Notes under the pieces: generated by a model
The model's database searches: none
The model's input: only the letters and a program-made list of their open reading frames with translations
What the model was told of the DNA's origin: nothing
Source of the DNA: Elusimicrobiota bacterium
GTDB lineage: Bacteria > Elusimicrobiota > Elusimicrobia > UBA1565 > UBA9628
Assembly (NCBI GenBank): GCA_016218575.1
Contig: JACRDN010000017.1
Span: 1 to 64,000 of the forward strand
Length of the DNA stretch: 64,000 nt
Direction: 5' to 3'
In this document: positions 7,598 to 25,908 of the stretch, one piece after another
Layout of the letters: every line of letters starts with the position of its first letter
Position numbering within the stretch: the stretch's first letter is position 1
Translations under genes and position numbers: made by a program

Positions 7598-7628
7598 ACC
7601 CCGGCGTTCGGAATGCATCCAGAGGCCC

Positions 7629-7657: not shown

Positions 7658-7667
7658 GTAAAGCGCC

Positions 7668-8423: not shown

Positions 8424-8453
8424 AAAAAGCCCTCCAACCGGAAGGGCTTTTTT
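8424..8453 (+). terminator. Intrinsic terminator of the toxin-antitoxin operon
   Basis: The stem AAAAAGCCCT(CC) pairs with (GG)A-AGGGCTTTTT around an AACC loop, and the right arm ends in six T residues. It lies 140 bases past the antitoxin stop. Confidence 0.85.
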
Positions 8454-8537
8454 CTTTCATCCCGCCGCCTATCGACTTGGATTCGAACACTAACCTTTCG
8501 GTACACAGCGTATGGGAGACCTGCTGGCCTCCCGGCC

Positions 8538-8566
8538 TTGACAGGACGAGATTTGGCCGTTATCGT
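8538..8566 (+). promoter_or_regulatory. pilB promoter
   Basis: TTGACA (8538-8543), a 17-nt spacer and TATCGT (8561-8566) precede pilB. AGGGA at about 8568-8572 may serve as a weak ribosome binding site for the ATG at 8585. Confidence 0.6.
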
Positions 8567-8584
8567 TAGGGAAGCGGCGCAAAA

Positions 8585-10357: not shown

Positions 10358-10361
10358 GCCG

Positions 10362-10390
10362 TTGACAAGGGGGGGAAGGTGGGCTAACCT
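10362..10390 (+). promoter_or_regulatory. pilT promoter, probably leaderless
   Basis: TTGACA (10362-10367), a 17-nt spacer and TAACCT (10385-10390) end eight bases before the pilT ATG. pilT can thus be transcribed independently of pilB, with a very short or absent 5' leader. Confidence 0.5.
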
Positions 10391-10398
10391 ATGACCTT

Positions 10399-11478
10399 AT
10401 GATATCGATGAGCGAGCTGTTTATGCTGATGCATGAGCGCGGCGCCTCGGACCTGCATTTGACCGTGGGAGCGCCCCCCACCTTGCGCATAGACGGGGAG
10501 CTTCTGCCCACCCCCTTCGAGAAGCTGACCGGGGAGTCGGCCCAGACCATGATTTTCTCGCTTCTGACCGAGGCCCAGAGGCAGAGGTTCGAGGCCACCA
10601 ACGAGCTCGACCTGGCCTTCGGCCTGAAAGGGATCGGGCGCCTGCGCATGAACCTCTACCGCCAGCGCGGCGTGGTGGGCGCGGCCGTGAGGGCGATCCC
10701 CGCCAAGTTTAAAACCTTCGAGGAGCTGGCTCTGCCCAACGTGGTCTACGACATCATGAAAATTCCGAAGGGTCTGGTCCTGGTCACGGGCCCGACGGGT
10801 TCCGGCAAGTCCACCACCTTGGCCAGCATGATCGACTACATCAACGAGCACCGCGGCGGCCATATCGTCACGGTCGAGGACCCGATCGAGTACGTGCATA
10901 CCCACAAGAAGTCCATCGTGAACCAGCGCGAGGTCGGCCAGGACACAGAGACCTTCACCACCGCGCTTAAGTACGTCCTGCGCCAGGACCCAGACGTGAT
11001 CCTCATCGGAGAGCTGAGGGACCTTGACACCATCAGCTCGGCCCTCATGATCGCTGAGACCGGGCACCTGGTATTCGCCACCTTGCATACCACGGACTGC
11101 TCCCAGACCATCAACCGCATCATAGACGTGTTTCCCCAGCACCAGATCGAGCAGGTTCGGGTCCAGCTTTCCTTCGTGCTCCAGTCGGTCTTGAGCCAGC
11201 AGCTCCTGCCCCACGCCTCGGGCACGGGACGGGTGCTGGCCTGCGAGGTGCTGATGGTCACCCCCGCCATCAGGAACCTCGTGCGGGAACAGAAGATCGA
11301 GCAGATACAGCTCTCCATCCAGACCGGGGGCAAATTCGGCATGCAGACCATGAACCAAAGTTTGGCCGAGCTGTACCGCGCCCAGCGCGCCACCTTCCAA
11401 GAGGTGATGCAGCGCTCTCTCGATCCCGAGGATTTGAAGCGCCTGCTCCAGAGGACCATGGCGCCTGCCCAATCGTAA
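10399..11478 (+). CDS. pilT: Type IV pilus retraction ATPase PilT
   Basis: This is a 359-residue hexameric ATPase that powers pilus depolymerisation and twitching. The characteristic N-terminus is seen (LFMLMHERGASDLHLTVGAPP), with Walker A GPTGSGKSTTLASMIDY near residue 133. VEDPIEYVH, Walker B (DVILIGELRD) and AETGHLVFATLHT follow. It lacks the CxxC pair of PilB, as expected. A second in-frame ATG four codons in would also fit. pilC follows after six bases, so they are co-transcribed. Confidence 0.96.
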   Translation: MISMSELFMLMHERGASDLHLTVGAPPTLRIDGELLPTPFEKLTGESAQTMIFSLLTEAQRQRFEATNELDLAFGLKGIGRLRMNLYRQRGVVGAAVRAIPAKFKTFEELALPNVVYDIMKIPKGLVLVTGPTGSGKSTTLASMIDYINEHRGGHIVTVEDPIEYVHTHKKSIVNQREVGQDTETFTTALKYVLRQDPDVILIGELRDLDTISSALMIAETGHLVFATLHTTDCSQTINRIIDVFPQHQIEQVRVQLSFVLQSVLSQQLLPHASGTGRVLACEVLMVTPAIRNLVREQKIEQIQLSIQTGGKFGMQTMNQSLAELYRAQRATFQEVMQRSLDPEDLKRLLQRTMAPAQS

Positions 11479-11484
11479 TTCAAC

Positions 11485-12735
11485 ATGCCCACATTCGCCT
11501 ATAAGGCCAAAAGCGCGGACGGGAACGTCCTAGAGGGGGTGCTCGAGGCCGAGGAGCAGAAAACCGCGACCGAGCGCTTGCGCTCTCAGAAGCTGGTCGT
11601 GCTCGAGATCAGCCAAAAAGGGGGAGGCCCCCTGGGCTTCGTCAAGGAACTGCTCAAGGGCAAGGGCAAGGTCACCTCGAAGGATCTGGTCCTGTTCTCT
11701 CGCCAGCTTTCCACCTTGGTCGGAGCGGGCGTCCCCATCGTCCAGGGCTTGGCCATTCTCGAGTCCCAGGCCGAGAATCCCGCCTTCAAGGAAGCCCTCT
11801 CCGTGGTGCGTTCCGACATTGAAAGCGGGCTGTCCATCTCCGACGCCTTGAAAAAGCATCCGGCCGCGTTTCCCGAGCTCTACACCTCCATGGTCAAGGC
11901 CGGGGAGCTCGGGGGAATCCTCGATACGATTCTCGAGCGCCTGACCGCCTACCTCGAGAATTCCGAGGCTTTGAAGGCCAAGGTCAAATCCGCGATGATG
12001 TACCCCGCGATAGTCCTCAGCATCTGCGCCGCGGTGACGGTGTTCCTCATGACCTTCGTCATCCCAACTTTCAAGACCATTTTCTCGAGCTTCGGCGCCC
12101 AGCTGCCTCTCCCGACCCAGGTCCTCATAGACATCTCGGACTTCATGCGCAGCTATTTCATCGTGATCCTGCTGGCCCCGGTCGCGGGCTACAAGGGCTT
12201 CCTGCGCTTTTACGCCTCGCCCATCGGGCAAAAATGGGTGGACGGTCATGTGCTCAAGGCCCCTATCTTCGGGATCATTCTAAAGAAGGTGGCCGTGGCC
12301 AAGTTCACGCGCACCTTGGGGACTCTGATCAAATCGGGCGTTCCCATCATGCAGGCCTTGGAGACCGTGGCGGGAACCGCCGGGAACGTGGTCGTGGCCG
12401 AGGCCGTCATGTCGGCGCGCGAGTCCATCCGCGAGGGGGGGCACCTGGCCGACCCCTTGAAGAAGTGCGGGCTGTTTCCGAACATGGTGACCTCCATGAT
12501 CGCGGTGGGCGAGGAGACGGGATCGCTCGACATCATGCTGAGCAAGATCGCCGACTTCTACGACATGGAGGTGGACGCCGCGGTGAAGGGCCTTACCTCC
12601 ATGATCGAGCCCATCGTCATCGTCATCATGGGCATCATCATCGGCGCCATCGTCATCGCCATGTTCATGCCCATGTTCGGCCTGGGGGAGCTGGCCGGCA
12701 ACATGGAGGGGGGCTCCGGCGGCTCCGGGCATTAG
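11485..12735 (+). CDS. pilC: Type IV pilus inner-membrane platform protein PilC
   Basis: This is a 416-residue polytopic membrane protein of the PilC/GspF family that couples the PilB and PilT ATPases to pilin assembly. The N-terminal FAYKAKSADGNVLEGVLEA and two tandem GspF domains are clear (LFSRQLSTLVGAGVPIVQGL near residue 75 and KFTRTLGTLIKSGVPIMQAL near 275). They are separated by a hydrophobic hairpin near 170-235. The last membrane segment (PIVIVIMGIIIGAIVIAMFMPMF) is close to the C-terminus. The Gly/Ser-rich tail ends just before a strong hairpin terminator. Confidence 0.95.
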   Translation: MPTFAYKAKSADGNVLEGVLEAEEQKTATERLRSQKLVVLEISQKGGGPLGFVKELLKGKGKVTSKDLVLFSRQLSTLVGAGVPIVQGLAILESQAENPAFKEALSVVRSDIESGLSISDALKKHPAAFPELYTSMVKAGELGGILDTILERLTAYLENSEALKAKVKSAMMYPAIVLSICAAVTVFLMTFVIPTFKTIFSSFGAQLPLPTQVLIDISDFMRSYFIVILLAPVAGYKGFLRFYASPIGQKWVDGHVLKAPIFGIILKKVAVAKFTRTLGTLIKSGVPIMQALETVAGTAGNVVVAEAVMSARESIREGGHLADPLKKCGLFPNMVTSMIAVGEETGSLDIMLSKIADFYDMEVDAAVKGLTSMIEPIVIVIMGIIIGAIVIAMFMPMFGLGELAGNMEGGSGGSGH

Positions 12736-12740
12736 CCGAG

Positions 12741-12774
12741 AAAATCATTTGGCCGTTGGCGGCCAAATGATTTT
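12741..12774 (+). terminator. Terminator after pilC
   Basis: The 15-bp perfect stem AAAATCATTTGGCCG / CGGCCAAATGATTTT has a TTGG loop and ends in TTTT. It begins six bases past the pilC stop. The flanking A and T runs let it work in both directions, though uvrC converges only after another repeat. Confidence 0.8.
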
Positions 12775-12785
12775 CGAAGAAGAAG

Positions 12786-12822
12786 TTATCCACAAAACCT
12801 CGCGGGGAGTTTCTGTGAATAA
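12786..12822. repeat. Dispersed DnaA-box palindrome, copy 1
   Basis: TTATCCACA (12786-12794) and TGTGAATAA (12814-12822) form the ends of a 37-nt inverted repeat. It is the most degenerate of the six copies, with a mismatched centre (ACCTCGCGGGGAGTT). It lies between the pilC terminator and the 3' end of uvrC. Confidence 0.75.
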
Positions 12823-12955
12823 GTCCAAGAGACTGTCGGCTGAACTGCGAAGCACCCGGCTTGAACGAACGCTAGCCGACGGCACCCGCGTCGTCGTGCT
12901 CTATGGGCGTTCCCGCGACGACCTCCGGGAAGCGATCAGCCGGTTTCGTTTATAG
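12815..12955 (+). CDS. Possible small basic protein
   Basis: An open frame of 46 codons could start at GTG 12815. Its product is basic (NKSKRLSAELRSTRLERTLADGTRVVVLYGRSRDDLREAISRF). A longer version from ATG 12749 would begin inside the pilC terminator and read through the palindrome, which is unlikely. The tail of the frame overlaps the 3' end of uvrC by 20 bases on the opposite strand. The composition (ADGTRVVVLYGRS) looks coding-like, but no family is recognised and no ribosome binding site is seen. Confidence 0.3.
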   Translation: MNKSKRLSAELRSTRLERTLADGTRVVVLYGRSRDDLREAISRFRL

Positions 12956-14267
12956 GGTACTCTTCGAACAGCTTCTTGCCGCGCAGCAGGCGATGGTAGG
13001 TTATCCCGAACCGGTGCGCCTCGTCGCGCAGTCTTTGCAGCAACCTTAAGGCGAGTCGGTCCGCCTTGAGGTGGAGAGGGTCCCTTCTCTCCGGAAGAAA
13101 GACTTCTTCCAGCCGCTTGGCGAGCGAAGCCAGGGGAATTTTCGCGCCAAGCTCCTTTAACGCCTGCTCCGCCGCCCCCAACTGGCCCTTGCCGCCGTCA
13201 ATCAGCACGAGGTCCGGGTAGAGCTCTCCGGCCTTCTGCAGGCCCCCATAGCGCCGCCTGACGGCTTCCCGCAGGGACTTGAAGTCGTCTATCCCTTCCG
13301 TTTCCCTGATCTTGAACTTGCGGTAATGCGCGCGGTTGGGCTGGCCGCCCTTAAAGCAAACCATGGAGGCCACGGTCTGCCGCCCCTGGAAATGGGAGAC
13401 GTCGAAGCATTCGACGTGGAAGGGGGGGCGGTCGAGCCCCAAGGCCTGCTGGAGGTCGGTCACGGCCTGGGAGAATACCAGGCTCGTGTCCAGGTCCTCC
13501 TCCTTGATGGCCTGGACGCGCACTCGCTCGCCCATCTGGGAAAGGGCCGCGATGTTGTCGCGCAGTTGCGCGGCCTGCTCGTAATGCAGGCCGCGGGAGG
13601 CGGCCTGCATCTCTCTTTCAAACTGTTCTTTGAGCTCGGCGTATTCTCCTTTGAAGAAGAGGGCCGCCCTTTCGGCGATGGCCTTGTAATTTTCCTGGGA
13701 GATCTTTCCAGCGCAGGGGGCCGGGCACTCGCCTGTATGGTAGTAGAGGCAGGAGTTGATCTTCCTCGGCTCCAGGGTCTTTTTGAGACTGAACTCCCAG
13801 CGGCAGGGGCGCAGCGGAAAAAACTTGTGCTTCCAGAGATAGCGCAAGAGGCTTTTGACCGGTGAGGCCTTGGGGTAGGGGCCGAAGTAGAGCCCGCCGT
13901 CCTTGGCCTTCTTGCGGGTAAAAGTGAGCCTCGGGAAGTCCTCTCCGAGGGAGACCTTGACGTAGGGATAGGACTTGTCGTCCTTCCACATGGAGTTGAA
14001 GAAGGGCATGCGTCCCCGTATGAGGCGTCGTTCCAGGATCAGGGCCTCGCGCTCCGAGGCGCAGGGGATGTAGTCGATTTTCCGGATGAGGGGGGTGAGG
14101 GTCGAGTTTTTCAGGTCCGCCTTGCGGGGATTGAAGTAATGCGCGACCCGCTTGGCCAGATCGTTGGCCTTGCCGATGTAGAGGATCTCCCCGGCCGCGT
14201 CGCGCATGAGATAGACCCCGCAGGCGTGAGGCAGATGGCCGCGTTGAATGGGAGCAGGGCTTCTCAT
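12936..14267 (-). CDS. uvrC: Short UvrC-like excinuclease subunit lacking HhH domain
   Basis: UvrC makes the two incisions in nucleotide excision repair. This 443-residue version has the GIY-YIG nuclease (PHACGVYLMRDAAGEILYIGKA, residues 12-33), the UvrB-binding UVR segment near 205-240, and the RNase-H-like endonuclease (VECFDVSHFQG...LVLIDGGKGQL...DEAHRFGITYHRLLR). It stops at KKLFEEYPINETG. Full-length UvrC (about 600 residues) continues with tandem helix-hairpin-helix motifs that bind DNA, and these are absent. The gene therefore looks C-terminally truncated, next to palindrome copy 1. It may still be a functional short UvrC/Cho-like form. Confidence 0.88.
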   Translation of the reverse strand: MRSPAPIQRGHLPHACGVYLMRDAAGEILYIGKANDLAKRVAHYFNPRKADLKNSTLTPLIRKIDYIPCASEREALILERRLIRGRMPFFNSMWKDDKSYPYVKVSLGEDFPRLTFTRKKAKDGGLYFGPYPKASPVKSLLRYLWKHKFFPLRPCRWEFSLKKTLEPRKINSCLYYHTGECPAPCAGKISQENYKAIAERAALFFKGEYAELKEQFEREMQAASRGLHYEQAAQLRDNIAALSQMGERVRVQAIKEEDLDTSLVFSQAVTDLQQALGLDRPPFHVECFDVSHFQGRQTVASMVCFKGGQPNRAHYRKFKIRETEGIDDFKSLREAVRRRYGGLQKAGELYPDLVLIDGGKGQLGAAEQALKELGAKIPLASLAKRLEEVFLPERRDPLHLKADRLALRLLQRLRDEAHRFGITYHRLLRGKKLFEEYPINETG

Positions 14268-14288
14268 GGAAGTGTTTGCCGTTGATAT

Positions 14289-14300
14289 ATTTTATAAAAT
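14289..14300. promoter_or_regulatory. Divergent AT-rich promoter core
   Basis: The 12-bp perfect palindrome ATTTTATAAAAT offers a TATAAA -10 box on both strands. It lies 9 nt before the chlorite-dismutase-like ATG (plus) and about 23 nt before the uvrC ATG (minus). No good -35 match accompanies either. Confidence 0.4.
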
Positions 14301-14307
14301 AAATCTT

Positions 14308-15048
14308 ATGACCACCCAGGACCTTCCCGACCTGCGCGAGCGGGGCGGGGCCAAGAACGGCCAGCCTCAATTCCTGGACCGGCGGCTTTTCATGCAGCTC
14401 CAGGCGTTTACCGGCTGCCGGGATTCAAGGCCGCTGGTCCGCGCCGTTTCCGAGTCCGGTCTGGAGGCGGTATGCTACGAGGACGTCAATGATCCGAGCG
14501 GGGTGGGCGTGCTGGCCATGAGCGAAGAGCCGGAGCTCTTTCTCACGACCTGGAGACAGCTTCTCAACCGCGAGCCGTTCTCGGGCCTCTCCCACAAGCC
14601 GGAGCTCGCCATGCTCGGCCGCACCTATTCTTTGGGCTACGAGCCCAACCTGGAGAATTGGCTCATCGGCAAGCCGCGGCGCACGGTTCTGGATCCGGAC
14701 TGGCCGTGGGCCTTGTGGTATCCCTTGAGGAGGACCGGGGCTTTCTCGCGCCTGTCCCATCAGGAGCAGGGGCAGATCTTAAGGGAGCACGGGATCATCG
14801 GGCGCTCCTTCGGCGACGCGGGCTTCGGCCGGGACATCCGCCTGGCCTCCATGGGCTTGGACAAGAACGACAACGATTTCACGATCGGCCTGGTCGGCCG
14901 GGAGCTCTTCCCTCTCTCGGCCTTGGTCCAGGCCATGCGCGCCACGGTCCAGACCTCGACCTACATCCAGGCCATGGGCCCCTTCTTCGTGGGGCGGGCC
15001 GTTTGGCAGTCTGAGCTCAAGCCCGAGCACAAGGAGGCCCGGCCGTGA
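14308..15048 (+). CDS. Chlorite-dismutase-superfamily heme protein (HemQ-like)
   Basis: This is a 246-residue member of the Cld/HemQ superfamily. The C-terminal half shows the typical order WYPLRRTGAFSRLSHQEQ, then LREHGIIGRSF with the His that ligates heme in HemQ proteins. IRLASMGLDKNDNDFTIGLV and LVQAMRATVQTSTYIQAMGPFFVGR follow. HemQ-type enzymes decarboxylate coproheme in heme synthesis, while true chlorite dismutases detoxify chlorite. The sequence alone does not choose, and the distal Arg cannot be placed securely. The ATG at 14308 is preferred over an upstream frame that overlaps uvrC. The gene heads a four-gene operon. Confidence 0.75.
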   Translation: MTTQDLPDLRERGGAKNGQPQFLDRRLFMQLQAFTGCRDSRPLVRAVSESGLEAVCYEDVNDPSGVGVLAMSEEPELFLTTWRQLLNREPFSGLSHKPELAMLGRTYSLGYEPNLENWLIGKPRRTVLDPDWPWALWYPLRRTGAFSRLSHQEQGQILREHGIIGRSFGDAGFGRDIRLASMGLDKNDNDFTIGLVGRELFPLSALVQAMRATVQTSTYIQAMGPFFVGRAVWQSELKPEHKEARP

Positions 15049-15452
15049 CCGAGCCGAAGAAGGTCTTCAAAGTCCGCATGTCCGAGCGCTGCTTTCGCTT
15101 CAAGCCCGACGCCTTGGGCTCCCACGCCCCGCCCCGGCCGGGGGTCTACGAGTTCGTGACCTTCGAGAACGGCAGCGCCGTCGTCCTGTATGTCGGCCTG
15201 GCGCTGGACAAAGGCGTTTCCCAGGCCTTGGGCGAGCACATGATGGGCCAGGCCGCCCCGGCGGCGGCCGAGCTCTTCGCCGTCGCCAAGGACATATATT
15301 TCGACTACGTGGCCGAGGCCGATATCGAGTCCCTCGAGGATTTAAAGGACATCGCCGCGGTCCTCTCGGCCAAGCACCGCCCGCGCTTCAACCCCCAGCC
15401 CCTGCCCGGGACGGGGCGCTACGCCGCCGTCGAGATCGAAGAAGTCGAGTGA
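15045..15452 (+). CDS. Degenerate GIY-YIG-like small protein
   Basis: This is a 135-residue protein starting at GTG 15045, overlapping the previous stop as GTGA. The segment PPRPGVYEFVTFENGSAVVLYVGLALDKG resembles the GVY...YVG signature of GIY-YIG folds. The later RHRPRFN-like segment (AKHRPRFNPQPLPG) also recalls UvrC-type GIY-YIG ends, but several catalytic residues are not obvious. A nuclease role is therefore uncertain. It is translationally coupled to the heme-protein gene before and the DUF420 gene after it. Confidence 0.6.
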   Translation: MTEPKKVFKVRMSERCFRFKPDALGSHAPPRPGVYEFVTFENGSAVVLYVGLALDKGVSQALGEHMMGQAAPAAAELFAVAKDIYFDYVAEADIESLEDLKDIAAVLSAKHRPRFNPQPLPGTGRYAAVEIEEVE

Positions 15453-15868
15453 GGCTCTCCGCACTTCCCGGGCTCAACGCCTGCTTGAACGCGGGCTCGG
15501 CCGTTCTCCTGTTGCTCGGCTGGTATTTCATCCGAGCCCGCAAAGTCGAGGCCCATCGCCTCTGCATGCTGGCGGCTTTGGCCTGCTCTACTTTCTTCTT
15601 GTCGAGCTATCTCTACTACCACGCCCATGTCGGATCGGTTCCCTTTCATGGTCAAGGCATGCTCCGAAAGCTTTATTTCACGATCCTCGTCAGCCACACG
15701 ATACTCGCCGCCGTCATCGTCCCCATGATCCTGCGCGCCCTTTACCTCGCCCTCAAGGGGCGATTCGTCGAGCATTCCCGGTGGGCCAAGAGAGTCCTGC
15801 CCCTTTGGCTCTACGTCTCGGTGACCGGGGTCGTGATCTACCTGATGTTGTACCGATTGCAGGCATGA
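15449..15868 (+). CDS. DUF420 membrane protein (CtaM-like)
   Basis: This is a 139-residue protein with four predicted membrane helices: AVLLLLGWYFI, LCMLAALACSTFFLSSYLYY, YFTILVSHTILAAVIVPMILRALYLAL and VLPLWLYVSVTGVVIYLMLY. It carries the conserved His residues of DUF420 (EAHR, YYHAHVGS, VSHT). In Firmicutes a DUF420 protein (CtaM) is needed for heme-copper oxidase maturation. A link with heme also fits the HemQ-like gene two positions upstream. It starts at GTG in a GTGA overlap and ends in an ATGA overlap with the next gene. Confidence 0.8.
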   Translation: MRLSALPGLNACLNAGSAVLLLLGWYFIRARKVEAHRLCMLAALACSTFFLSSYLYYHAHVGSVPFHGQGMLRKLYFTILVSHTILAAVIVPMILRALYLALKGRFVEHSRWAKRVLPLWLYVSVTGVVIYLMLYRLQA

Positions 15869-16398
15869 TTGAATTACAAGCGTTTGGCCCGGCTGATTTC
15901 AGCAGATTGATCGGCTGGATCGACTCATACCGTGAATTGATCCAATGGAGCGGAGGAGGATTCGAGTATCCTCTGACCGAATCGCAGCTCGAAAGATATT
16001 TATGCCGAGTTAATGAGCGGAATTCACCCGCCCAGGTCTTCAAGGCTGTCGTCAGGGAGTCCAATGACGCGGTTGGGCATGTCGAGTTGGGGCGGATTGA
16101 CCGCGAGCAGGGGACAGCCAGAATCGGCAGGGTTCTCATCGGCAAGCCGTATAGAGGCCAAGGGTATGGATCAAAAATGCTGGCGACTCTATTGTCGCTC
16201 GGGTTCAAGGAATATGGCTTGCGCCGTATTGAATTAGGGGTTTACGATTTCAATGCCGGCGCGATTCGGTGCTATGAGAAGGCAGGGTTTGTCCGGGAAG
16301 GGCTTCGGCGAAAGCAGCGAAGGGCCGGAGAAGAATTTTGGAATTTAATGGATATGGCAATCCTCAAGGAGGAATGGGCGATCCGGGCCAGCGGCTAA
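15865..16398 (+). CDS. GNAT-family N-acetyltransferase (RimJ-like)
   Basis: This is a 177-residue acetyltransferase. The GNAT core is clear. VGHVELGRIDREQGTARIGRVLIGKPYRGQGYGSKML contains the acetyl-CoA P-loop (RGQGYG), and the later IELGVYDFNAGAIRCYEKAGFVREGLRR is the usual C-terminal signature. The acceptor is unknown; RimJ/RimL relatives acetylate protein N-termini or small molecules. The start at 15865 is an ATGA overlap with DUF420. Palindrome copy 2 begins two bases past the stop. Confidence 0.85.
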   Translation: MIELQAFGPADFSRLIGWIDSYRELIQWSGGGFEYPLTESQLERYLCRVNERNSPAQVFKAVVRESNDAVGHVELGRIDREQGTARIGRVLIGKPYRGQGYGSKMLATLLSLGFKEYGLRRIELGVYDFNAGAIRCYEKAGFVREGLRRKQRRAGEEFWNLMDMAILKEEWAIRASG

Positions 16399-16400
16399 AG

Positions 16401-16437
16401 TTATTCACAAAACTTCGCCGCGAAGTTCTGTGAACAA
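16401..16437. repeat. Dispersed DnaA-box palindrome, copy 2
   Basis: TTATTCACA (16401-16409) and TGTGAACAA (16429-16437) flank the self-complementary core AACTTCGCCGCGAAGTT. The element sits exactly between two convergent genes, directly after one stop codon. Confidence 0.85.
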
Positions 16438-16445
16438 GTCCGATC

Positions 16446-18419
16446 TTAACGAGAGAGGGCTTTTAGGATCAGAAAAACTGTCGTGGCCGAGAGCTTGGCC
16501 TTTTGCTTTTCGGCGGGCTTGTCCTTGAGCTGTCTCTCCAAGGCGTGGAAAAACCCCGGCAAAAGTTTCGCCATTTCCTCGGCGGCCTCGCCGGCCAAGG
16601 TGGCGTTGGGGCCGTAGAGCAGATATTGAAAATGGCTGAAAACAAGGTTCCAGCCGGGCTGGGGGTCCCTAACGCCCTGCTCAAATATCGAGGAGTCGAG
16701 GATATGCATATCCGCGCTTAGAAGCTGTATGAGGCGGCCCTTAGTAAATAGGGGCAAGATGGCTTCGATGAGGCTGTTGGTCTGATGCTCGAACATCCGG
16801 ACGTCGGCCGGTTCCCGGGAAAAACGCTCCCGCTCCACCCGAAGAGCCAAAAGGAGGGGCAGGGCCTGATTGTCCAGGAGGTATCGGTCCATATCCTCCA
16901 GAGATTCCACGGCTTTGTTCCTGGCGAGGAATTTAGCGGGGTCGTTGCGCGTCTCCTCCAGGAACCATTCCAGCTCATCGAGCCTGCGTGTCAGGGAATC
17001 TCTCTCCGTCTCCGGCGCTGAATTCAGCCAGGACAGGCTCAGGCGCTTGACCGTCGAGAAATGCGCGCGGACCTGGGAGAGAGTTCCCGGCCGGGCCCGC
17101 GCCAGTTCGATTTCTTCCATGGTCAGGATCGGTTCGGGCTCCGGCTCCTCTGGTTCTGGTAAAGAAAATGGGTCTTTGGCGCCGGGAACATGAGGTCTCT
17201 GCGCGATTTTCTCCTGTTTTTGAATGAGAGCGTATTGCTTCTTGATTCTCTCGCGGATGCTGTCCTCCAAAAGACTTTCTACCCGAGACAGGAGGAAATC
17301 CAGGTCCCGGGCGTTTCTTGCGAGGGCGGCGGGGTCGTCGAGCTCGAGGCGGTCATAAAGACTGTGATACGCCAATATCTGCTCGGCCCTCTTATTGGCC
17401 GCTTCGGCGGCGGCGGCCCTGTTGAGGCTCAGCCAATCCGAGCTGGGTGCAGTGTCCGCCAATAGAACGTCCAGAATATTTTGATCTCGAGGCGTCAACC
17501 GAGGCAAAACGGGCTGAAGTTGGGCCGAACTCCAGGGAGGCTGCAGGGGGTTGGGGTTGCTCTCGCGGATATCCCAGTGGCGAACCGCGCCCTGGTCGCC
17601 GCGGGCGAGCAGGTATTTCCCGTCCGGGCTCAAGGAGACGCGTTCCAGGCGGCCTGGGACCGAAAGTTGGGTATCGGCGACCTGGATCGTTCCGTTGGGC
17701 TCGACCGTGACGAGCCCCTCTCCGGAGTGGGCGTTTACGTTGATCCCGTCCTCGGCGCTGTAGATAAGGCTGTAATGGGCGAACTCCTCCTTCAAGTGCC
17801 TGTCAATCAATTCTCGCAGGCCGGCTCGGCGCGAGGCGGAGAGCCCCTCTAGGAGGCTGGAGTAGGCGCTCCAAAGTCCGGGACCGTAGATTTCGGCAAG
17901 AACTTCGGCGCGCGCCCGGATTGCCTTCAGTTGAAACCGCATTATATCCAGTTCCGCCGCGTCGGCGCTTGGCACGGCCCCGAGGGTCTGCTCGACCGCC
18001 TCGCGAAATCGCGCCTCCACGTCATCCCGGCCCTTCAGAAGAGCCTTTCTCGCGTCCTTGAGAATCGCGCGCTTGTCGGCCAGAGGAGCCTCGGGGTCGG
18101 CCAGGACGTCCAACCGGGTCTTGTCCAGCTCCAGGTGCCTCAGGAAGGGGGCCAGGGCCTTGGAGGTCTCGAGATCCTCGGTATTAATTCGGGCCAGGAA
18201 CCCCAGATCGGGAAATTCCGCCAGGAACCAGCTGTTATACGGCAGGCGCAAGCGCTCGGCCAGTCGCTCGGCCATGAAGCGCGGCCGGGCCGTCGGAAGG
18301 GAGAACATGACTGCCTGGTTTACCCGGGATAACGTCAAGCGAGGTGCTGCGCCCGCGGCCACGACGGCGCCCTGGCCGGCCAGGGCGCATAAAACGGCGG
18401 CGAGCACCAGATTTCTCAT
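16446..18419 (-). CDS. Exported protein of unknown function with WD40-like blade
   Basis: This 657-residue protein begins with a signal peptide (NLVLAAVLCALAGQGAVVAAGA). The body is mostly charged and helical. One WD40-like blade (LERVSLSPDGKYLLARGDQGAVRHWD) lies near residues 255-285, and a Pro/Glu-rich linker (SLPEPEEPEPEP) near 440. No enzyme motif was recognised. It is transcribed divergently from the 2441-residue AAA+/VWA gene, sharing a 163-bp intergenic region. That protein also has blades with the same FSPDxxxL...VxxWD pattern, so the two may work together. The -10-like CATACT lies seven bases before the ATG. Confidence 0.6.
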   Translation of the reverse strand: MRNLVLAAVLCALAGQGAVVAAGAAPRLTLSRVNQAVMFSLPTARPRFMAERLAERLRLPYNSWFLAEFPDLGFLARINTEDLETSKALAPFLRHLELDKTRLDVLADPEAPLADKRAILKDARKALLKGRDDVEARFREAVEQTLGAVPSADAAELDIMRFQLKAIRARAEVLAEIYGPGLWSAYSSLLEGLSASRRAGLRELIDRHLKEEFAHYSLIYSAEDGINVNAHSGEGLVTVEPNGTIQVADTQLSVPGRLERVSLSPDGKYLLARGDQGAVRHWDIRESNPNPLQPPWSSAQLQPVLPRLTPRDQNILDVLLADTAPSSDWLSLNRAAAAEAANKRAEQILAYHSLYDRLELDDPAALARNARDLDFLLSRVESLLEDSIRERIKKQYALIQKQEKIAQRPHVPGAKDPFSLPEPEEPEPEPILTMEEIELARARPGTLSQVRAHFSTVKRLSLSWLNSAPETERDSLTRRLDELEWFLEETRNDPAKFLARNKAVESLEDMDRYLLDNQALPLLLALRVERERFSREPADVRMFEHQTNSLIEAILPLFTKGRLIQLLSADMHILDSSIFEQGVRDPQPGWNLVFSHFQYLLYGPNATLAGEAAEEMAKLLPGFFHALERQLKDKPAEKQKAKLSATTVFLILKALSR

Positions 18420-18487
18420 AATGAATAGTATGCCCAGTGCGAGGCCTCTGCGCGAGGGTCTTACGGGGCAAAGAAGGGGTGGGTCTT

Positions 18488-18548
18488 TAGGGCCTGGGGA
18501 ATAGGTCTTTTATCGATTTTAAGGGAGTCCCAAGGACCTATAAGGCCC
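18488..18548 (+). promoter_or_regulatory. GGCCC motif region upstream of the giant AAA+/VWA gene
   Basis: Two related motifs lie here: TAGGGCCTGGGGAATAGGTC (18488-18507, inverted orientation) and AGGACCTATAAGGCCC (18533-18548). The GGCCC of the second ends 34 nt before the GTG start, where a -35 element would be for a near-leaderless mRNA. Close relatives occur before 44747 and 63095. No ordinary TTGACA box is present. Confidence 0.5.
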
Positions 18549-18582
18549 CTCAGGGCTTATTGTTAACATAACCGGCGCCCCG

Positions 18583-21500
18583 GTGAAGAAGCTCATCTCC
18601 TGCCTCATTTCAGTCGCCCTCATCACCGCCGGCTTTCCGTGGACGGCTTTGGCCGAAGGCGGGGTCAAGGCGGTCCCCTCGCCGCTTCCGGCGCCGATAT
18701 TCGGCATGGCTCAAGCCCCCGGCCGGAGGATTATGCCGATTAGTGCGGGCGCGCGCATAGTCCGGGACAAATTGCTGGGCCGGCGGGGCTCAAAAGACGT
18801 GTTCTCGATACGGTTCCGTCCGGACGTCGATGCGGCCGACCGCCTCAGCGGCCGGGAATGGGAGGTCTGGCTCGCGGAACGAAACCTTTACGAGGTTGCC
18901 GGCGGCGAGGGATGGGCCTTGATCGGGGTATCGGAGGGGGGGCGAGTTCTGCGCAAGAACGTCGTCCCGGCCGTGGCGCGCGCGGTTCTGGAGATGGCGA
19001 GGCAGCCCTTCGTCCACGAATTGGAAGTCCACCCTCAGGTGTACCGGCGCATCCATTCCTCGGTGGAGCGGGCGCTCATGGGGGAAACGACCGGGACGAA
19101 TTCCAGCGCCGAGAAAGAGAGCGCCGCCGCGAGAGAGGTTTTCGGACGGAGTTGGGGGGCTTCTTTCCGTTATTTGGGTATCACGGCTCTTGGAGCCGTG
19201 CCGGGCGCTTCGCTGTGGAAAGCCGACGCCAATAATTCCTCGAGCCGGGGCGCGATCCTTCCATCTGCTTGGAACCAGTCCGAGGAAACGGTCGATACCG
19301 TCCTTGCCGAGCCCCGCGGCCAGCAGTTCAAGATGATGAAATTCAGTCCGGATAGCCTCCGCTTGATCACGGTCAACGAGTGGGGTACTGTTCACATATG
19401 GGACACCGGAACCGGGCGCCTTCTAAAGAGCATCCGCTCTCTCGAGTACATCCCATCCCCCGGCAATCAACTTGCGCACGAAACGCCGCGCCAATTTTTC
19501 CTGGATGGACAGACCATCACGATCAGGCCTTGGGGTTACTATTTTCGTAAGGGAAACCGCATTCCCACGGCCTTGGTCGTCAATTGGGGAGGGAATGATA
19601 TTTCAGTTAATGGGGACAAGCTTCAAACCGAGAGTCCGGACGGCCGTTTCAAGGCCTATACCGCCGGGCTCTTGGCGAGCCCCGAGCTTGTTCTGCGCGG
19701 CCCGCGGCCGGCTGTGATCGGTCCAGCCGCTAAAAATGCTCTTGAGGCGGCGGTCTCCGAAGAACTTTCCGCTCCCGCGCAGAGGCTCGAGCCGGGGAGG
19801 GAAGGCGGAGCGTGGGCGCATTTCGGGTCCATGTGGGGGCTTTTGAGCCGGGCTGCGCCGTTTCTGTGGCTTTTCGGCTTGGGTCTTATGGGCCTCTTGG
19901 AGCATTTCTTCGCGCCCGGAAGCGGCCTGGTCCTGGGCGCGGCCATGATCCCGCCGCCCCTTGGCCGAAAGCTGTTTTGGGACGCTCGTCAGGACGATAC
20001 AATCGAGGTTTTGGAGGACTTAGAGCAGCTCGGCTTCGAGGATGGGGCCTTGCCCGAAGTGGCCAAGGCCATCGGGGCATTCTACGCCGAGATCCGCAAG
20101 GACGAGAACAAGCCCCGCGGCAAGGACGGCCGCAAGGAGGCGTTCAACCAGAGGGATATTTCCAGGGCTTGGGCTGCGGCCTTCGCCCTGCAGTACCGCC
20201 AGCTCCGGGTCGTGGCGCCGAACCGCCGCTTGGCCGCTTTCGCGGCGTTTTACCGGGCCTTGGAATTCGCCTACGGGGCGGGCTTGGAATACGATCCCGC
20301 CGATAATGACCCGAACAACGGGGACCGCAAGGCCTTCGAGAAGGTTTTAGCCGATCCCAAAAACGGGGTTCTCCGCGCGCTGGCCCGGGGCCTCAAACTG
20401 AAAGTTCCCGCTGCGGCGAAAGGCCGGCCGGCCCCGGGCCTCGAGTCGTTCATAGACGGCGTTATTCAAGCCCAGGATGCGCGGCTTTCTCTTCAGGTGC
20501 TGTCGGAAAGGGCCGACAAGGTCCCTCTGCCGGAGACGCTCATGCCGGGCCAGGCCCCTCCCCTCTTGGAGCCGAGCGGGGCCGCGCTCCGGAGCTTCGA
20601 GGATATGAAGGCGCAATTCGTGACTGAAGTGGATCGCGGCGGGCAGAGAGTCCGAATCGAGAGCGCTTGGAGTGTTTTACGCCATATTACGACGGCCGTG
20701 AGGCTCAACCTGCCCGCGCTTGCGGTGGGGCCTACCGGAACCGGAAAAAGCGCCGCGATCAAATGGCTGGCCGCGGTCATGGGCGTGCCTCATTTGGCCG
20801 TAGCCATGAAACCCTCGAGCGGCAAGGACGAGCTTATGGGCTCGATCAACATCACCCCCAAGGGCCTGGCCTGGCAGTGGGGCTACCTCGTCAAGGCCAT
20901 CGCCAACGGGGACTGGGTCACCTTGGAGGAGGTCAATCTCGCTCCTACCGAGGTTCTTGAGTTTCTCAACGAGTTCTTGAACTCCGGCTTCGTGCGCCTG
21001 ACCCAATACCTCGACCCCGAGACTCTGGAGCATGTCCTGCCTCGCGAGCTTTATGAATCGTTGAAAGAAAACGGATTCATCCTCAAGCCGCATCCCCGGT
21101 TCAGGCTGTTTATGACCATGAACCCGGCCTCCTACGCGGCGCGCAACAAGCTGGCCCAGACCTTGACCAATCGCTCCGTCCAGCTGTGGGTGCCGGATTA
21201 TTCGCCCGTGGAAATCCGGTATATGCTGGAGGCCCGCTTCGGCATCGAACCCGGGCTGGCCCTGACGTTGGTCGAGTCGATCTATGAGCCGCTTAAGAAT
21301 ATGGTCCGGAGCGGCAGGCTGGGCAAGGGCTGGAAGGACAGGTATGAATTCAACCTCAGGACCTTGCTGAGGGTGACCGGCTTGTATAAGGAAAATCTGG
21401 AGCTTTACGCGCAGGCGCACCCCGAGAAACCCATGGACGAGCGCACGGAGCGCCTGCTTATGGCCCGGGCCCTGTGGGAAGGTATTGGAGTGACGATGCG

Positions 21501-24500
21501 CGGGGACGTGGACCGCAAGGTGCTGTGGACGCTTTTCAATGTGGCTTTGGGGCTCAAGAAGAAGTATGGCATCACGCAAGAGGAGGTTCTGCCTCGGGTA
21601 CGGGCTATACGGCTCGATCGAAAGAGGCGCGAGATCGTCTTCGACGACGCCCTTCTGCCCTTGCGCCTGCCCCTGCGGCCGGGAGGGGCCTTCGTGCCTC
21701 CTGAGGACTTCGACTTGCCGCCTACCCAGCAGACCCTTAACCACATCTATTGGTACGCGCGCCGGATGCTCCGCGGCCAGAACAGGCTCTCGGTGGGCGA
21801 GACCTCGGCCGGAAAGACCACCATGGTCCAATATATCCACCGCATCCGGCACGCCGCCCTCTTCTACACCAACCTGTCTTCGGACAGCGCGGACTCCGAT
21901 ATCGGGGGCGGCTATGAGCCAGACCCCGGGAGTCCCGGCGAGTTTCGCTTCGCCCATGGGCTTCTCAAGCGCGCGGGGGAGGAATACGGCGGCGAGGGAT
22001 CCACCTTGGCCATAGACGAGTTCAACTTCAACGCCTTGGTCGAATACTTCAACACGGCCATGGACGACGGCTATATCGTTACCCCCGTCGGGAAGGTGAA
22101 GCTCGGGCCTCAGACCTCTATTGACGCGCTCATGAACCCCCCTAGCTCCCAGGGGCGCAGTATGCTGAGCCCGGCCCTGCGCGGCCGCTTTTGGGAGATA
22201 TGGATAGAGGAGCCGGATCAGAAAGAGGCCACCTTGCGGGCCGGCTACGTTCTCCGGAAGTTCATGAAAATCCTGGGCGTCGCCGCGTTGTTTGTGGGAG
22301 GCGCTCTCCTGCTCGGCCCCACCGGGGCTTTGGCCTCGACTCCAGTCGCAGCCGTAGCGCAAGGGACGGCGCCGGTTTTCGGGATCGCGGCTTCCCTGGC
22401 CTTGGCGGCCGTTTTAAATTGGAGAAAAGACTTCTGGAGCCGCATTGGCGTTCATAGCCGGCTCCGGGCAAGGTTTTTGGGGCCGCGAGACGCCAACATC
22501 ATCGATATTTATGTCGACTGGGCTGACGTTGGCCGGCTGGTCAAGGCCTGCGCTTCGCTGGGACTGGAGCTCGAAGTTCCCGAGCGCAGAGAGTGTGGCC
22601 ACTGCGTCGCCAAGGGCTCGGGATCGGCCGAGGCTCTGGCCGCGGGAGTCCTGAAATTGGCCGGGAGGGACTTCATTGAAAGAATCGAGGTCCATCAGGC
22701 CGTTTACAACCGGGTCTCCGCCATGATGGCCGGGGAAAGGTCCGTGGTCGTTTCCAAGGAATTGGAGAATCGAGGGGCAATGCCCGATCCTCAATCGTCC
22801 GGCACGGCCCGCGAGGCGTTCGGCAACGCATGGGGTTTCATGGCCGGGCTTGGACTCAGGACAGGCGTTGATCGGAGAGTGTTTCATAGCCTAGAGTTGT
22901 CCGATCCTTTGACGATCCAGGTCGGCGACGAGGGATCCCTGCTGGCTCTGCACCCGAGCCGAGACCTCGCGGCTACCGTTGGGGAAGTGCCCGACGATTC
23001 GTCCAGCAGGGACAACCATGTTTCCCTATGGGACAGCCGGACGGGCGCCAGAATTAAGACGCTGGACATCGCGGAAAAGAAGTCCATCAATGATATCCAT
23101 TCCCTCGGTTTTAGCCCGGACGGCGGCATTCTAGCCGTGGCCGTCCGCAGCGGATGGCGATGGATCGTCAGGCTTTGGAATACCCGGACTTGGAAGCCCT
23201 TGCGCCGGTTCATTGGCATCCGGGCGTTTGCCTTCAGCCCCGATTCCAAGGCGCTTTTTCTTGTTGGGAATAAGCAAATGCGCTTGGTCGAGAGCGGGTC
23301 TTGGAGAACCATATGGTCCGGGCGGGCTCGGGCCAGCACCTTCGAGTGGGCCGACAGGCGCCGACCCGCCTTTAGTCCGGACGGGAAGCGTATCGCCTTG
23401 AAGCTTAAAGACGAGGTGATTCATCTCCTGGATTCGGCCACGGGCCGATGGATCGCGTCGCCGGCGCCGCCGGGCAAGGAGAATTTGTTCCGGCAGCAAA
23501 ATCTCTCGGGCTTCCAGTATTCTCCCGATGGAAGGACGGCGGCGGCTATCCTATACGGAAACTGGCTTCTGGTGGGCGATGCCCAGACCGGGCGGAAGCG
23601 GAAAAGCTTTCTGCCTCCCTTCAGGAGATCTTTCGATTCCCTGGCCTGGCATCCCGACGGGCGTCTCTTGGTCGCGGTCCCCTCGAAAGACGCAGGCCCG
23701 CTGATATTTCGGGTTGGAACCTGGCAGGTCGAAGAAAAGCTGCCCGTACAAAACGGCCCTAGTGCTGCCGCTTTCAGCGGCGATGGAAGGAGGCTGGCTA
23801 TTAAGGCGGGTGGGGAGCTCACGATTTGGCGGATGCAGAACGAAGCGGACCGGGCCGCCATGGTGGAGGGGGAGTTGATCCATGGGGCCGAGAGGACTGT
23901 TTCGGGAGGGGGTCTAGGCACGGCCCGGGACGTGTTCGCAAGCGCCTGGAGCGCTGCCGTTGGCGGCTTATGGCGCATCACCATCGGCATGGCCGAGAGC
24001 GCGAGCTCCGCGGTGTCCGGCGCAACCGTGGAGGACCTTCTCAGGGAGAGCCGGGTGCCGCGCGGGAAATGGGCCGAGGTCAAGCGCAAGCTCGCCGAAG
24101 TTTGGGATATCTTGTCCGCCTTGGGCGTGGCCTTCGGCGGGCAGCGCGCGCTTCAATTCCGGATCGGGCAGTGGTGGGAAACCAATCTGGACGAGGGAAT
24201 CATTTTTATTCCCTTAAAGGAGATTCTCAAGCATCTCGATAATCTCAAGGTCCTGATCGGCGCCATCCTGCACGAGGCCGGTCATGTTTTCTACACGCGC
24301 CTGCACAAGCTGGCCGAGTACATGCCTTTTTTGCAAGCGACCGGAGCGCCGGAGGCCGTGCACACCCTTTTCAACGTCTTGGATGACATGTACTTGGAGC
24401 ACGCCGAGTCCCAACGTCTGCCCGGGGCCCCCGAGTATTTGGAGTCCCTGCACGCGGCTTATCGTCCGGATTTGTTCCGCGGGGATCTGGGGCTTGCCAA

Positions 24501-25908
24501 GGAGCTTAAGGGCAAGCCCATGGGAAATAGCCAAGAGGACCAGGTCAAGGCTCTCTTCCCGCACGAGGAATATCTGGACGCTCTGCGCTCTTTCTGGATG
24601 ACGCGGCAATTCCCCGCGCAGTATGTCAACCCCGAGGTCGCGCGGGCGGTGCAAGCCACGGCCGGTTCCGTTGAGTCCATCCTGGACCTGCTTCCCGAAG
24701 CGCCGACGCCGAGCGAGGCCGAGCTCTTGGAGTTGTCGCGCAGGCGCTTTGACCTCATTAGGGAAAAGATCGCGCCGCGGTATTTGGAGCTCATCGAGCT
24801 CAGCCGCCGGCGACTCGAGGAGGAAAGCTTGGGAAATCCCGATCAAATCATTGGTCAGCGCGCCGAAAGGATCGCGGAGAAGCTCGCGCCCAGCCATGGC
24901 CACGAAGGGCACGGGCCCCGGGAAGGGGCCGCCGCCAAGCCTCGGGGACAGCGTTCCGCGCCTTTGGGAAAACCCGAGTCTTCGCGCCGGTCGGGACGCC
25001 CGGCCGGCGCAAGGCCCATAGGAAAAAGGGCCGTGCGAGATATAATCAATCGCCACGAGGATGTCATGGCGCTCGTTCGGCCGGGCAATTTCTACGAGCA
25101 GTCCTTGTCCAGGATATTCCACCTCATCGACGGCTTCGTGGGCCGCATCGACAACCTCTTCGCCAAGAACAGCAAGCCCGGGTGGGAGGGTTTTTTCTCA
25201 AAATCGCCGGGCCGGGTCAATATCAGGCGCTTCATGGCGGGCAGGGCGAGGGGTTGGCGCAATAAGGGCGATTTCAAGTTCTGGGAGCGCCGGAGGCTTC
25301 CGACGAAGCGCGACTACAAAGCCCGGATACTGATCGACCTCTCCGGCTCCATGGGCGGCTCCAAGCTCGAGCGCACCCTCGACCTCGTGGCCTGGATGAT
25401 GGAGTCCTACGAAAGGCTCGGGATTGATTACAGCATCATGGGTTTCGCGGACGACGTCTACCTCTTCAAGGACTTCGCCGGAAGCCCAGAGCAGGTTCAG
25501 CCTCTTAGCTCCGATGAAAAAGAGAGTATCTTCGCCAAGGTCCGCGCCGCCGGCAAAGGCGGCACCAACGATGTGGGGGGGGTGCTGGCGGCCCTCCAGG
25601 GCGACGAGGAGAAGGGTTTCTCGAGCCTCGAGGACCAGGACGTGGAGTTCCGGTCCTTGGTCGTCGTGACCGATGGCGAGGGCAACGGCAAGAATTCCGA
25701 CCAAATGGGCGCGGCCTTGGCTCAGGCCGCTGAGAAGCGGGTCAGCGTCATCGGGATCGGGATCGGTGAGGGCATGTCTTACGTCAAGGAGCGCTACCCG
25801 GGCGCGCATGTTTTGGAGCCGGATATGGAACACATGACCGACGCGGTTTCGGGGGCCTTCGAGCGGGAACTCGAGAGGAGCTTCGAGGTTGGGGTGCCGG
25901 TGCGTTAG
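18583..25908 (+). CDS. Giant exported AAA+ / WD40 / metallopeptidase-like / VWA protein
   Basis: This 2441-residue single chain starts at GTG with a signal peptide (KLISCLISVALITAGFPWTALA). Module I (about 70-200) is followed by a WD40-like blade and a hydrophobic segment (425-452). AAA+ module 1 has GPTGTGKS at 716-723, LEEVN at 781-785 and MTMNP near 844-848. AAA+ module 2 has GETSAGKTT at 1072-1080 and IDEFN near 1144-1148. Membrane segments lie near 1229-1251 and 1263-1281. A second copy of module I (1290-1425), six or seven WD40-like blades (1440-1755), HEAGH (1897-1901) with LDDMYLEHAE (1933-1942), and a C-terminal VWA domain with MIDAS DLSGS (2252-2256), T2328 and D2364 follow. MoxR/VWA and CobS/CobT pairs are the nearest architecture known to me, normally on separate genes. 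Function is unknown. Confidence 0.8.
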   Translation: MKKLISCLISVALITAGFPWTALAEGGVKAVPSPLPAPIFGMAQAPGRRIMPISAGARIVRDKLLGRRGSKDVFSIRFRPDVDAADRLSGREWEVWLAERNLYEVAGGEGWALIGVSEGGRVLRKNVVPAVARAVLEMARQPFVHELEVHPQVYRRIHSSVERALMGETTGTNSSAEKESAAAREVFGRSWGASFRYLGITALGAVPGASLWKADANNSSSRGAILPSAWNQSEETVDTVLAEPRGQQFKMMKFSPDSLRLITVNEWGTVHIWDTGTGRLLKSIRSLEYIPSPGNQLAHETPRQFFLDGQTITIRPWGYYFRKGNRIPTALVVNWGGNDISVNGDKLQTESPDGRFKAYTAGLLASPELVLRGPRPAVIGPAAKNALEAAVSEELSAPAQRLEPGREGGAWAHFGSMWGLLSRAAPFLWLFGLGLMGLLEHFFAPGSGLVLGAAMIPPPLGRKLFWDARQDDTIEVLEDLEQLGFEDGALPEVAKAIGAFYAEIRKDENKPRGKDGRKEAFNQRDISRAWAAAFALQYRQLRVVAPNRRLAAFAAFYRALEFAYGAGLEYDPADNDPNNGDRKAFEKVLADPKNGVLRALARGLKLKVPAAAKGRPAPGLESFIDGVIQAQDARLSLQVLSERADKVPLPETLMPGQAPPLLEPSGAALRSFEDMKAQFVTEVDRGGQRVRIESAWSVLRHITTAVRLNLPALAVGPTGTGKSAAIKWLAAVMGVPHLAVAMKPSSGKDELMGSINITPKGLAWQWGYLVKAIANGDWVTLEEVNLAPTEVLEFLNEFLNSGFVRLTQYLDPETLEHVLPRELYESLKENGFILKPHPRFRLFMTMNPASYAARNKLAQTLTNRSVQLWVPDYSPVEIRYMLEARFGIEPGLALTLVESIYEPLKNMVRSGRLGKGWKDRYEFNLRTLLRVTGLYKENLELYAQAHPEKPMDERTERLLMARALWEGIGVTMRGDVDRKVLWTLFNVALGLKKKYGITQEEVLPRVRAIRLDRKRREIVFDDALLPLRLPLRPGGAFVPPEDFDLPPTQQTLNHIYWYARRMLRGQNRLSVGETSAGKTTMVQYIHRIRHAALFYTNLSSDSADSDIGGGYEPDPGSPGEFRFAHGLLKRAGEEYGGEGSTLAIDEFNFNALVEYFNTAMDDGYIVTPVGKVKLGPQTSIDALMNPPSSQGRSMLSPALRGRFWEIWIEEPDQKEATLRAGYVLRKFMKILGVAALFVGGALLLGPTGALASTPVAAVAQGTAPVFGIAASLALAAVLNWRKDFWSRIGVHSRLRARFLGPRDANIIDIYVDWADVGRLVKACASLGLELEVPERRECGHCVAKGSGSAEALAAGVLKLAGRDFIERIEVHQAVYNRVSAMMAGERSVVVSKELENRGAMPDPQSSGTAREAFGNAWGFMAGLGLRTGVDRRVFHSLELSDPLTIQVGDEGSLLALHPSRDLAATVGEVPDDSSSRDNHVSLWDSRTGARIKTLDIAEKKSINDIHSLGFSPDGGILAVAVRSGWRWIVRLWNTRTWKPLRRFIGIRAFAFSPDSKALFLVGNKQMRLVESGSWRTIWSGRARASTFEWADRRRPAFSPDGKRIALKLKDEVIHLLDSATGRWIASPAPPGKENLFRQQNLSGFQYSPDGRTAAAILYGNWLLVGDAQTGRKRKSFLPPFRRSFDSLAWHPDGRLLVAVPSKDAGPLIFRVGTWQVEEKLPVQNGPSAAAFSGDGRRLAIKAGGELTIWRMQNEADRAAMVEGELIHGAERTVSGGGLGTARDVFASAWSAAVGGLWRITIGMAESASSAVSGATVEDLLRESRVPRGKWAEVKRKLAEVWDILSALGVAFGGQRALQFRIGQWWETNLDEGIIFIPLKEILKHLDNLKVLIGAILHEAGHVFYTRLHKLAEYMPFLQATGAPEAVHTLFNVLDDMYLEHAESQRLPGAPEYLESLHAAYRPDLFRGDLGLAKELKGKPMGNSQEDQVKALFPHEEYLDALRSFWMTRQFPAQYVNPEVARAVQATAGSVESILDLLPEAPTPSEAELLELSRRRFDLIREKIAPRYLELIELSRRRLEEESLGNPDQIIGQRAERIAEKLAPSHGHEGHGPREGAAAKPRGQRSAPLGKPESSRRSGRPAGARPIGKRAVRDIINRHEDVMALVRPGNFYEQSLSRIFHLIDGFVGRIDNLFAKNSKPGWEGFFSKSPGRVNIRRFMAGRARGWRNKGDFKFWERRRLPTKRDYKARILIDLSGSMGGSKLERTLDLVAWMMESYERLGIDYSIMGFADDVYLFKDFAGSPEQVQPLSSDEKESIFAKVRAAGKGGTNDVGGVLAALQGDEEKGFSSLEDQDVEFRSLVVVTDGEGNGKNSDQMGAALAQAAEKRVSVIGIGIGEGMSYVKERYPGAHVLEPDMEHMTDAVSGAFERELERSFEVGVPVR

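Follow-up and report, generated by a model that had tools for sequence, protein, structure and literature searches.

In the 64,000-nucleotide stretch of Elusimicrobiota DNA analyzed here (the window), a single gene combines an HExxH site and a VWA domain with two AAA+ modules and WD40 blades, all behind a signal-peptide-like N terminus. What kind of machine could such a chain form, and on which side of the membrane would it work? Elusimicrobiota and Omnitrophota are known for huge, poorly characterized proteins (PMC11573180), and Kaur et al. place dynein-midasin, MoxR, YifB, and the chelatases in one clade in which vWA partners are frequent (PMC7159879). The initial annotation had called the architecture undescribed, and our search of open-licence papers likewise returned no description of such a fused form, nor any of midasin-like chains in bacteria.

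An intact reading frame encodes a natural fusion

The chain is encoded by one open frame of 2441 codons with a GTG start (positions 18583 to 25908, plus strand). The frame contains no interrupting stop and zero N bases, shows coding-type GC by codon position from end to end, and is carried on a 310,862-base contig of a 2.8-Mb genome that is 97% complete. The initial annotation had asked in advance whether homologs are split into separate genes and the chain is an assembly fusion. Split relatives do exist in two genomes (G042 and G029), but the AAA and VWA halves lie in one frame in G056, G017, and G038. (G042 corresponds to JACQPK010000228 and G056 to JACQPE010000190, both public Elusimicrobia MAGs; G000 denotes the genome of the window.) The clean frame and the fused forms in three other genomes rule out an assembly join. 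The 2441-residue chain is a genuine, intact, natural fusion.

Motifs and Pfam agree with the initial annotation on the content of this chain, Pfam matching AAA_5 twice, WD40 blades, and VWA. All of its parts lie on the plus strand. The chain opens with a signal-peptide-like sequence at residues 1 to 25 (VKKLISCLISVALITAGFPWTALA, followed by E; positions 18583 to 18657). The N-terminal module that follows (residues 26 to 350; positions 18658 to 19632) contains a paralogous part and then a WD40 blade at residues 252 to 274; its first ~200 residues and residues 1225 to 1420 are diverged copies of one another (BLASTP of piece against piece, E 1e-8). The corresponding internal module (residues 1283 to 1420; positions 22429 to 22842) is followed by the WD40 blades recognized by Pfam (residues 1450 to 1760; positions 22930 to 23862). 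Hydrophobic stretches were found where the initial annotation had placed a signal peptide and membrane-like segments: at residues 4 to 24 (signal-like), at 424 to 461 (weak; positions 19852 to 19965), preceding the AAA unit, and at 1230 to 1280 (positions 22270 to 22422), where a signal-peptide-like segment and a second hydrophobic segment form a hairpin.

The gene neighbors in the window are a mixture of housekeeping and type IV pilus genes and offer no functional clue. The divergently placed neighbor (positions 16446 to 18419, minus strand) encodes 657 residues with a signal-like start, one cysteine, and, by eye, a WD40-like blade; it matched no Pfam family.

Sequence and predicted fold place the AAA modules with midasin and dynein

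The AAA unit consists of a helical N-terminal part (residues 464 to 690; positions 19972 to 20652), AAA1 with its lid (residues 691 to 1035; positions 20653 to 21687), and AAA2 (residues 1036 to 1228; positions 21688 to 22266). The initial annotation had suggested a MoxR-type identity for these modules and a DUF2201/CobT-like identity elsewhere in the chain. The profiles rule out MoxR and DUF2201: neither the window nor the families listed for the other members include AAA_3 (MoxR), which the genome's own MoxR genes do match; DUF2201 was not listed; and CobT_C reached 18.2 bits in the window, below its cut-off of 21. The best match of the AAA modules was midasin.

An AAA profile built from six members and compared with the PDB matched midasin with an E value of 1.9e-132, CbbQ/NorQ with 8e-14, and dynein with 7e-9. 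Because several midasin modules sum into the first of these scores, we compared single AAA modules separately. AAA1 alone scored 65 bits with one midasin module (i-E 3.6e-17), and its best CbbQ match scored 36. For AAA2 alone, midasin was the sole match up to an E value of 0.01; that match was built up mainly from numerous small ones, of which the strongest had 26.5 bits. An ordinary MoxR from this genome, used as a control, matched a MoxR-like structure with 362 bits and midasin with 58. The midasin lid of Pfam, AAA_lid_7, was matched in four of seven members (best E 3.6e-13) and reached 18.2 bits in the window, below the cut-off of 22.7. The CbbQ_C lid, in contrast to NorQ/NorD, was not listed for the window, where AAA_5 is present; it was matched weakly in G011.

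An AlphaFold model of both AAA modules, made with seven sequences, had a pLDDT of 77 and a pTM of 0.76. It superposes on the Rea1 ring (Z 22.8, 4.2 Å, 528 residues) across two AAA modules and on two modules of dynein at once (Z 22.5), and Foldseek ranked dynein first. We therefore predict that AAA1 and AAA2 are neighbors in the plane of a single ring, and a six-module ring would probably comprise three chains. Taken together, sequence, the lid of some relatives, and the modeled fold indicate that the modules are of the midasin/dynein type, with midasin the closest.

The two modules differ in their active sites. Walker A reads GPTGTGKS in AAA1 (residues 716 to 723) and GETSAGKT in AAA2 (residues 1072 to 1079), and Walker B reads WVTLEE (residues 778 to 783) and LAIDE (residues 1142 to 1146, with DE at 1145 and 1146), respectively. 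Walker A of AAA2 is intact (GKT), and its Walker B carries DE, in all members. In AAA1, Walker B is LEE or FEE in all seven; the P loop is normal in the window and degenerate in G017 (GTEKS) and G038 (ATEKS). AAA modules of dynein and midasin also differ among themselves. These residues suggest one working and one regulatory ATP site per chain.

The VWA domain resembles the MIDAS domain of midasin

The C-terminal part of the chain contains a helical HExxH domain (residues 1803 to 2075; positions 23989 to 24807), a low-complexity linker (residues 2076 to 2165; positions 24808 to 25077), and a MIDAS-type VWA domain with an N-terminal extension (residues 2167 to 2441; positions 25081 to 25905). 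In the HExxH domain, HEAGH occupies residues 1897 to 1901, DD residues 1934 and 1935, and PH residues 1993 and 1994. The HExxH motif, one D of a [DE]D pair some 37 residues further on, and the PH motif are invariant in six of six members, and more distant proteins of the phylum retain HExxH together with EDPRVN. Three further proteins (in G062, G048, and G245) have HELFE at the HExxH position and may have lost the metal site. No solved structure was matched by the sequence of this domain.

The MIDAS residues of the VWA domain are D2252-x-S-x-S, T2328, and D2364, and Pfam analysis of the C-terminal half of six members returned VWA, VWA_CoxE, and a weak CobT_C match. With a structure model of this half, which is of modest confidence (pLDDT 68), the top Foldseek matches were NorD (9qhd_G, 1.4e-8) and the MIDAS domain of MDN1. 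VIA-align gave Z scores of 23.3 to 24.4 to crystal structures of the Rea1/MDN1 MIDAS domain (2.0 to 2.4 Å over 200 to 210 residues in the three best alignments, pre-VWA extension included), compared with 17 to 18 to NorD and 16 to 18 to generic or unrelated VWA domains. As judged from the model, the C-terminal VWA domain best matches the midasin MIDAS domain. The initial annotation had described the Walker and MIDAS residues as intact; this stands for both Walker A motifs, the AAA2 Walker B, and MIDAS, the exception being AAA1, with LEE instead of DE.

Fused and split forms occur in a few Elusimicrobiota

Strong matches to the AAA profile, indicating the tandem-AAA form, were found in 6 of 341 Elusimicrobiota genomes, in addition to one partial Omnitrophota relative; the HExxH-VWA profile matched in 18 of the 341, several of these matches being distant. 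An alignment-based search of genome contigs returned six records, from five Elusimicrobia MAGs and one Omnitrophota, and a search of genome contigs with a single protein as the query gave no match. Viral contigs yielded weak single-AAA matches only, and plasmids AAA fragments only. The tandem-AAA fused chain is confined to a few groundwater Elusimicrobiota that make up a rare group. The Omnitrophota relative (QNCL01000079) has, by eye, HEAT-like repeats ahead of its two AAA modules and a normal cysteine content.

In G042, an AAA gene of 835 codons with a good ribosome-binding site overlaps the HExxH-VWA gene by GTGA, and each has a signal-like start. The AAA and VWA genes of G029 are split and overlap likewise. 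The hydrophobic segments of the window chain at residues 424 and 1230 coincide with the signal-like starts of the two G042 genes, and thus the fused gene looks like earlier secreted-type genes joined with their signals retained.

Other arrangements also occur. G011 has one AAA module and a separate, overlapping HExxH-VWA frame, and in G009 one AAA module is fused to HExxH-VWA. A single chain of G062 carries WD40 blades and a MIDAS motif besides three AAA_5 stretches. A chain of 3841 residues in G024 (L106, positions 615 to 12140, minus strand) combines several AAA-like stretches, WD40 arrays, a transglutaminase-like domain, and a C-terminal VWA-like region with a MIDAS motif. We also observed a 6143-residue open reading frame in G216 (L107, positions 600 to 19031) with a signal-like start, AAA-like stretches, two HExxH motifs, and an internal MIDAS motif. 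The chain of G017 (L041/L033, positions 5098 to 19998) remains open past 4967 residues and has, after its VWA domain, repeats of membrane-segment and helical modules. G056 (L032) and G223 (L064) contain a repeat unit made of a basic motif, a signal-like segment with A-x-A, a short loop, a second hydrophobic segment, and a WD40 array.

Hairpin charge and cysteine content bear on the compartment of the chain

The initial annotation had proposed that the AAA part lies in the cytoplasm between membrane segments. The combined density of K and R in the 12 hairpins examined, taken from the chains of the window, G056, and G223, was 0.256 ahead of the first hydrophobic segment and 0.222 behind the second, with 0.005 in the loop between them. 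Both flanks are positive, and by the positive-inside rule both would be cytoplasmic, which would also solve the supply of ATP. On the other hand, signal-like N termini, judged by eye and a simple rule rather than by SignalP, are present on eight of the eight AAA-containing chains with a visible start (G000, G042, G017, G038, G029, G011, G024, and G216). The two G042 proteins have no clear second hydrophobic segment and so would be exported under that reading.

Cysteine content provided a further indication. The window chain has 3 cysteines in 2416 residues, with none in the AAA unit and none in the HExxH-VWA half. For calibration we used 464 kb of the same genome, with rough gene calls and a rough signal rule. 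In pooled proteins of at least 200 residues, cysteine made up 1.31% where neither signal nor membrane segment was present and 0.70% where a signal was the only membrane segment; signal-free membrane proteins were not depleted (1.14%). A stricter split predicts about 30 cysteines for a cytosolic protein as long as this chain (the Poisson probability of 3 or fewer is 4e-10) and about 13 for one bearing a signal. Among equally cysteine-poor long proteins, many show signal-like starts by eye. Elusimicrobiota relatives have 0 to 0.4% cysteine and the Omnitrophota relative 0.98%, values to be read with the caveat that an ordinary 329-residue MoxR of the same genome also has 0 cysteines. The hairpin charges are consistent with the proposed topology, and the split relatives' signal-like starts and the cysteine depletion argue against it; it is possible rather than established.

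Other predicted ATP-using enzymes of this genome show similar starts. Ten kb past the window, a Lon-like protease (G000:C17:73355-76561; L108:9355-12561) combines an AAA module and Lon_C (6e-37) with a signal-like start, a P/A-rich leader, and a hairpin built as in the window chain, and it has 1 cysteine in 1068 residues; a canonical Lon is encoded on another contig. Matches to the ABC1/UbiB-like kinase family with signal-like starts, mostly cysteine-poor, are encoded at window positions 44747 to 46819, at G000:C17:67852-69963, and at G000:C19:142764-147694. A search of this genome for a TLC-type ATP/ADP carrier, which had no positive control, gave no match. Either these bacteria consume ATP beyond the cytoplasm, or their signal-like starts serve something besides export.

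Alternative topologies and origins of the chain

Three readings of the signal-like segments have to be weighed. If these segments are the first halves of hairpins, the AAA, WD40, HExxH, and VWA parts would all face the cytoplasm, where ATP is ordinarily available, and membrane proteins would be the clients, as for NorQD, which is proposed to act on membrane-bound cNOR (PMC13036017). The charged hairpin flanks favor this arrangement, which we rate a little short of even. It fits poorly with the split relatives, whose signal-like starts have no clear second segment, and with a cysteine count a tenth of the roughly 30 expected for cytosolic proteins of this genome, a depletion not seen in its membrane proteins without signal peptides. 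If instead the N-terminal signal directs export of the AAA and VWA parts through the inner membrane, the uniform signal-like N termini and the cysteine depletion across Elusimicrobiota members would be explained, and the signal-bearing Lon-like protease beside a canonical Lon and the signal-bearing ABC1-like kinases would be further cases. ATP would then have to come from, say, a nucleotide transporter or the cytosol of prey or host; the periplasm is not expected to hold ATP, the search without a positive control gave no TLC-type carrier, and the hairpin flanks are positive on both sides. We regard this export as possible but doubtful. The chain might also be a polyprotein, in which signal peptidase cleaves internal A-x-A sites to release separate AAA and HExxH-VWA subunits like those of split G042. 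An [AGSTV]xA site lies just past the first hydrophobic segment in 11 of 12 hairpins and past the second in 2 of 12, and the internal segment at residue 1230 falls at the signal-like start of the second G042 gene. The same pattern would be expected, however, if the signal peptides were mere relics of fusion, and the window segment preceding AAA1 lacks the site; we think such processing rather unlikely.

Kaur et al. describe a beta-propeller vWA system (PMC7159879), and the chain shares AAA, vWA, and beta-propeller domains and membrane proximity with these MoxR-vWA-beta-propeller ternary systems, considered conflict systems (Kaur et al. 2020). One of seven members also matches bpMoxR (3e-10). 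In the published systems, however, the components are separate genes, the propeller is C-terminal to the vWA domain, a bpMoxR domain is present, and the third component is variable. In the window, bpMoxR is not listed, the propeller is N-terminal to the VWA domain, and no third component or effector is adjacent. PADLOC returned nothing of weight, its single weak match (E 0.0085) giving no ground for a defense system. That the chain is a fused form of these ternary systems is very improbable.

Discussion

We consider it somewhat probable that the chain is an Elusimicrobiota midasin-type AAA+ remodeling machine tied to the cell envelope. Its domain identity, natural fusion, motif conservation, and signal-like N termini are established here. 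In such a machine, the two AAA modules would be adjacent, as in midasin and dynein, and three chains would complete the six-module ring. AAA2 is equipped with the residues for ATP hydrolysis, and AAA1, with its LEE Walker B, would probably be a slow or regulatory site. By analogy with midasin and NorQD, the C-terminal VWA domain might dock on the ring and grip a client by way of its MIDAS metal, and ATP-driven motion would then exert a pull or a twist on that client. Metal binding and either cleavage or sensing of the client would fall to the HExxH domain, the WD40 blades would be docking surfaces, and the signal-like segments would anchor the chain at the inner membrane. In NorQD, a VWA finger lies in the ring pore and a twisting mechanism has been proposed (PMC13036017); we take this system, by analogy, as the best model of action. 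Counting against a machine of this kind are its mere two AAA modules, the absence of a long helical linker and of a ribosome-assembly context, and the small number of members. An exported chain would also need a source of ATP, a further point against this explanation.

Among known systems, midasin (Rea1/Mdn1) is similar in AAA sequence and fold, in the AAA lid of some members, in carrying several AAA modules and a MIDAS-type VWA domain in one chain, and in placing that domain at the C terminus after a low-complexity stretch. The window chain differs in having two AAA modules instead of six, in its HExxH domain, WD40 blades, and signal-like segments, in being bacterial, and in having neither a long helical linker nor a known ribosome link. 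Two adjacent AAA modules also superpose on the dynein motor (Z about 22), but the chain has two modules only and no microtubule-binding stalk. The NorQ/NorD and CobS/CobT pairs likewise partner an AAA_5-class ATPase with a VWA protein; the NorD VWA domain is a top Foldseek match, and some relatives in the phylum likewise have AAA and HExxH-VWA in different genes. To our knowledge, the described pairs are encoded by separate genes, have one AAA module in each chain, and lack a signal peptide. What is new here is a small fused midasin-like AAA-VWA machine with an HExxH domain and signal-like segments, whose suggested mechanism is drawn from its relatives.

A broader idea, that Elusimicrobiota export ATP-driven machines (midasin-type AAA-VWA chains, the Lon-like protease, and ABC1-like kinases) that act outside their own cytoplasm, strikes us as unlikely. 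If true, such machines would need ATP there, for example in a periplasm fed by some carrier or in the interior of a prey or host cell. Signal-like starts on AAA+ machines pose the question of whether these bacteria use ATP extracytoplasmically or the signals provide a novel mode of membrane anchoring.

Midasin, a motor of ribosome assembly, and dynein are both known from eukaryotic cells. The chains found here form a graded series in bacteria, from one AAA module with a separate VWA frame (G011), through one AAA module fused to VWA (G009) and two AAA modules with a separate VWA gene (G042 and G029), to two fused AAA modules (the window, G056, G017, and G038) and longer chains with more AAA modules and VWA (G062 and G024). 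This series makes the transition from a homohexamer to a single-chain ring testable.
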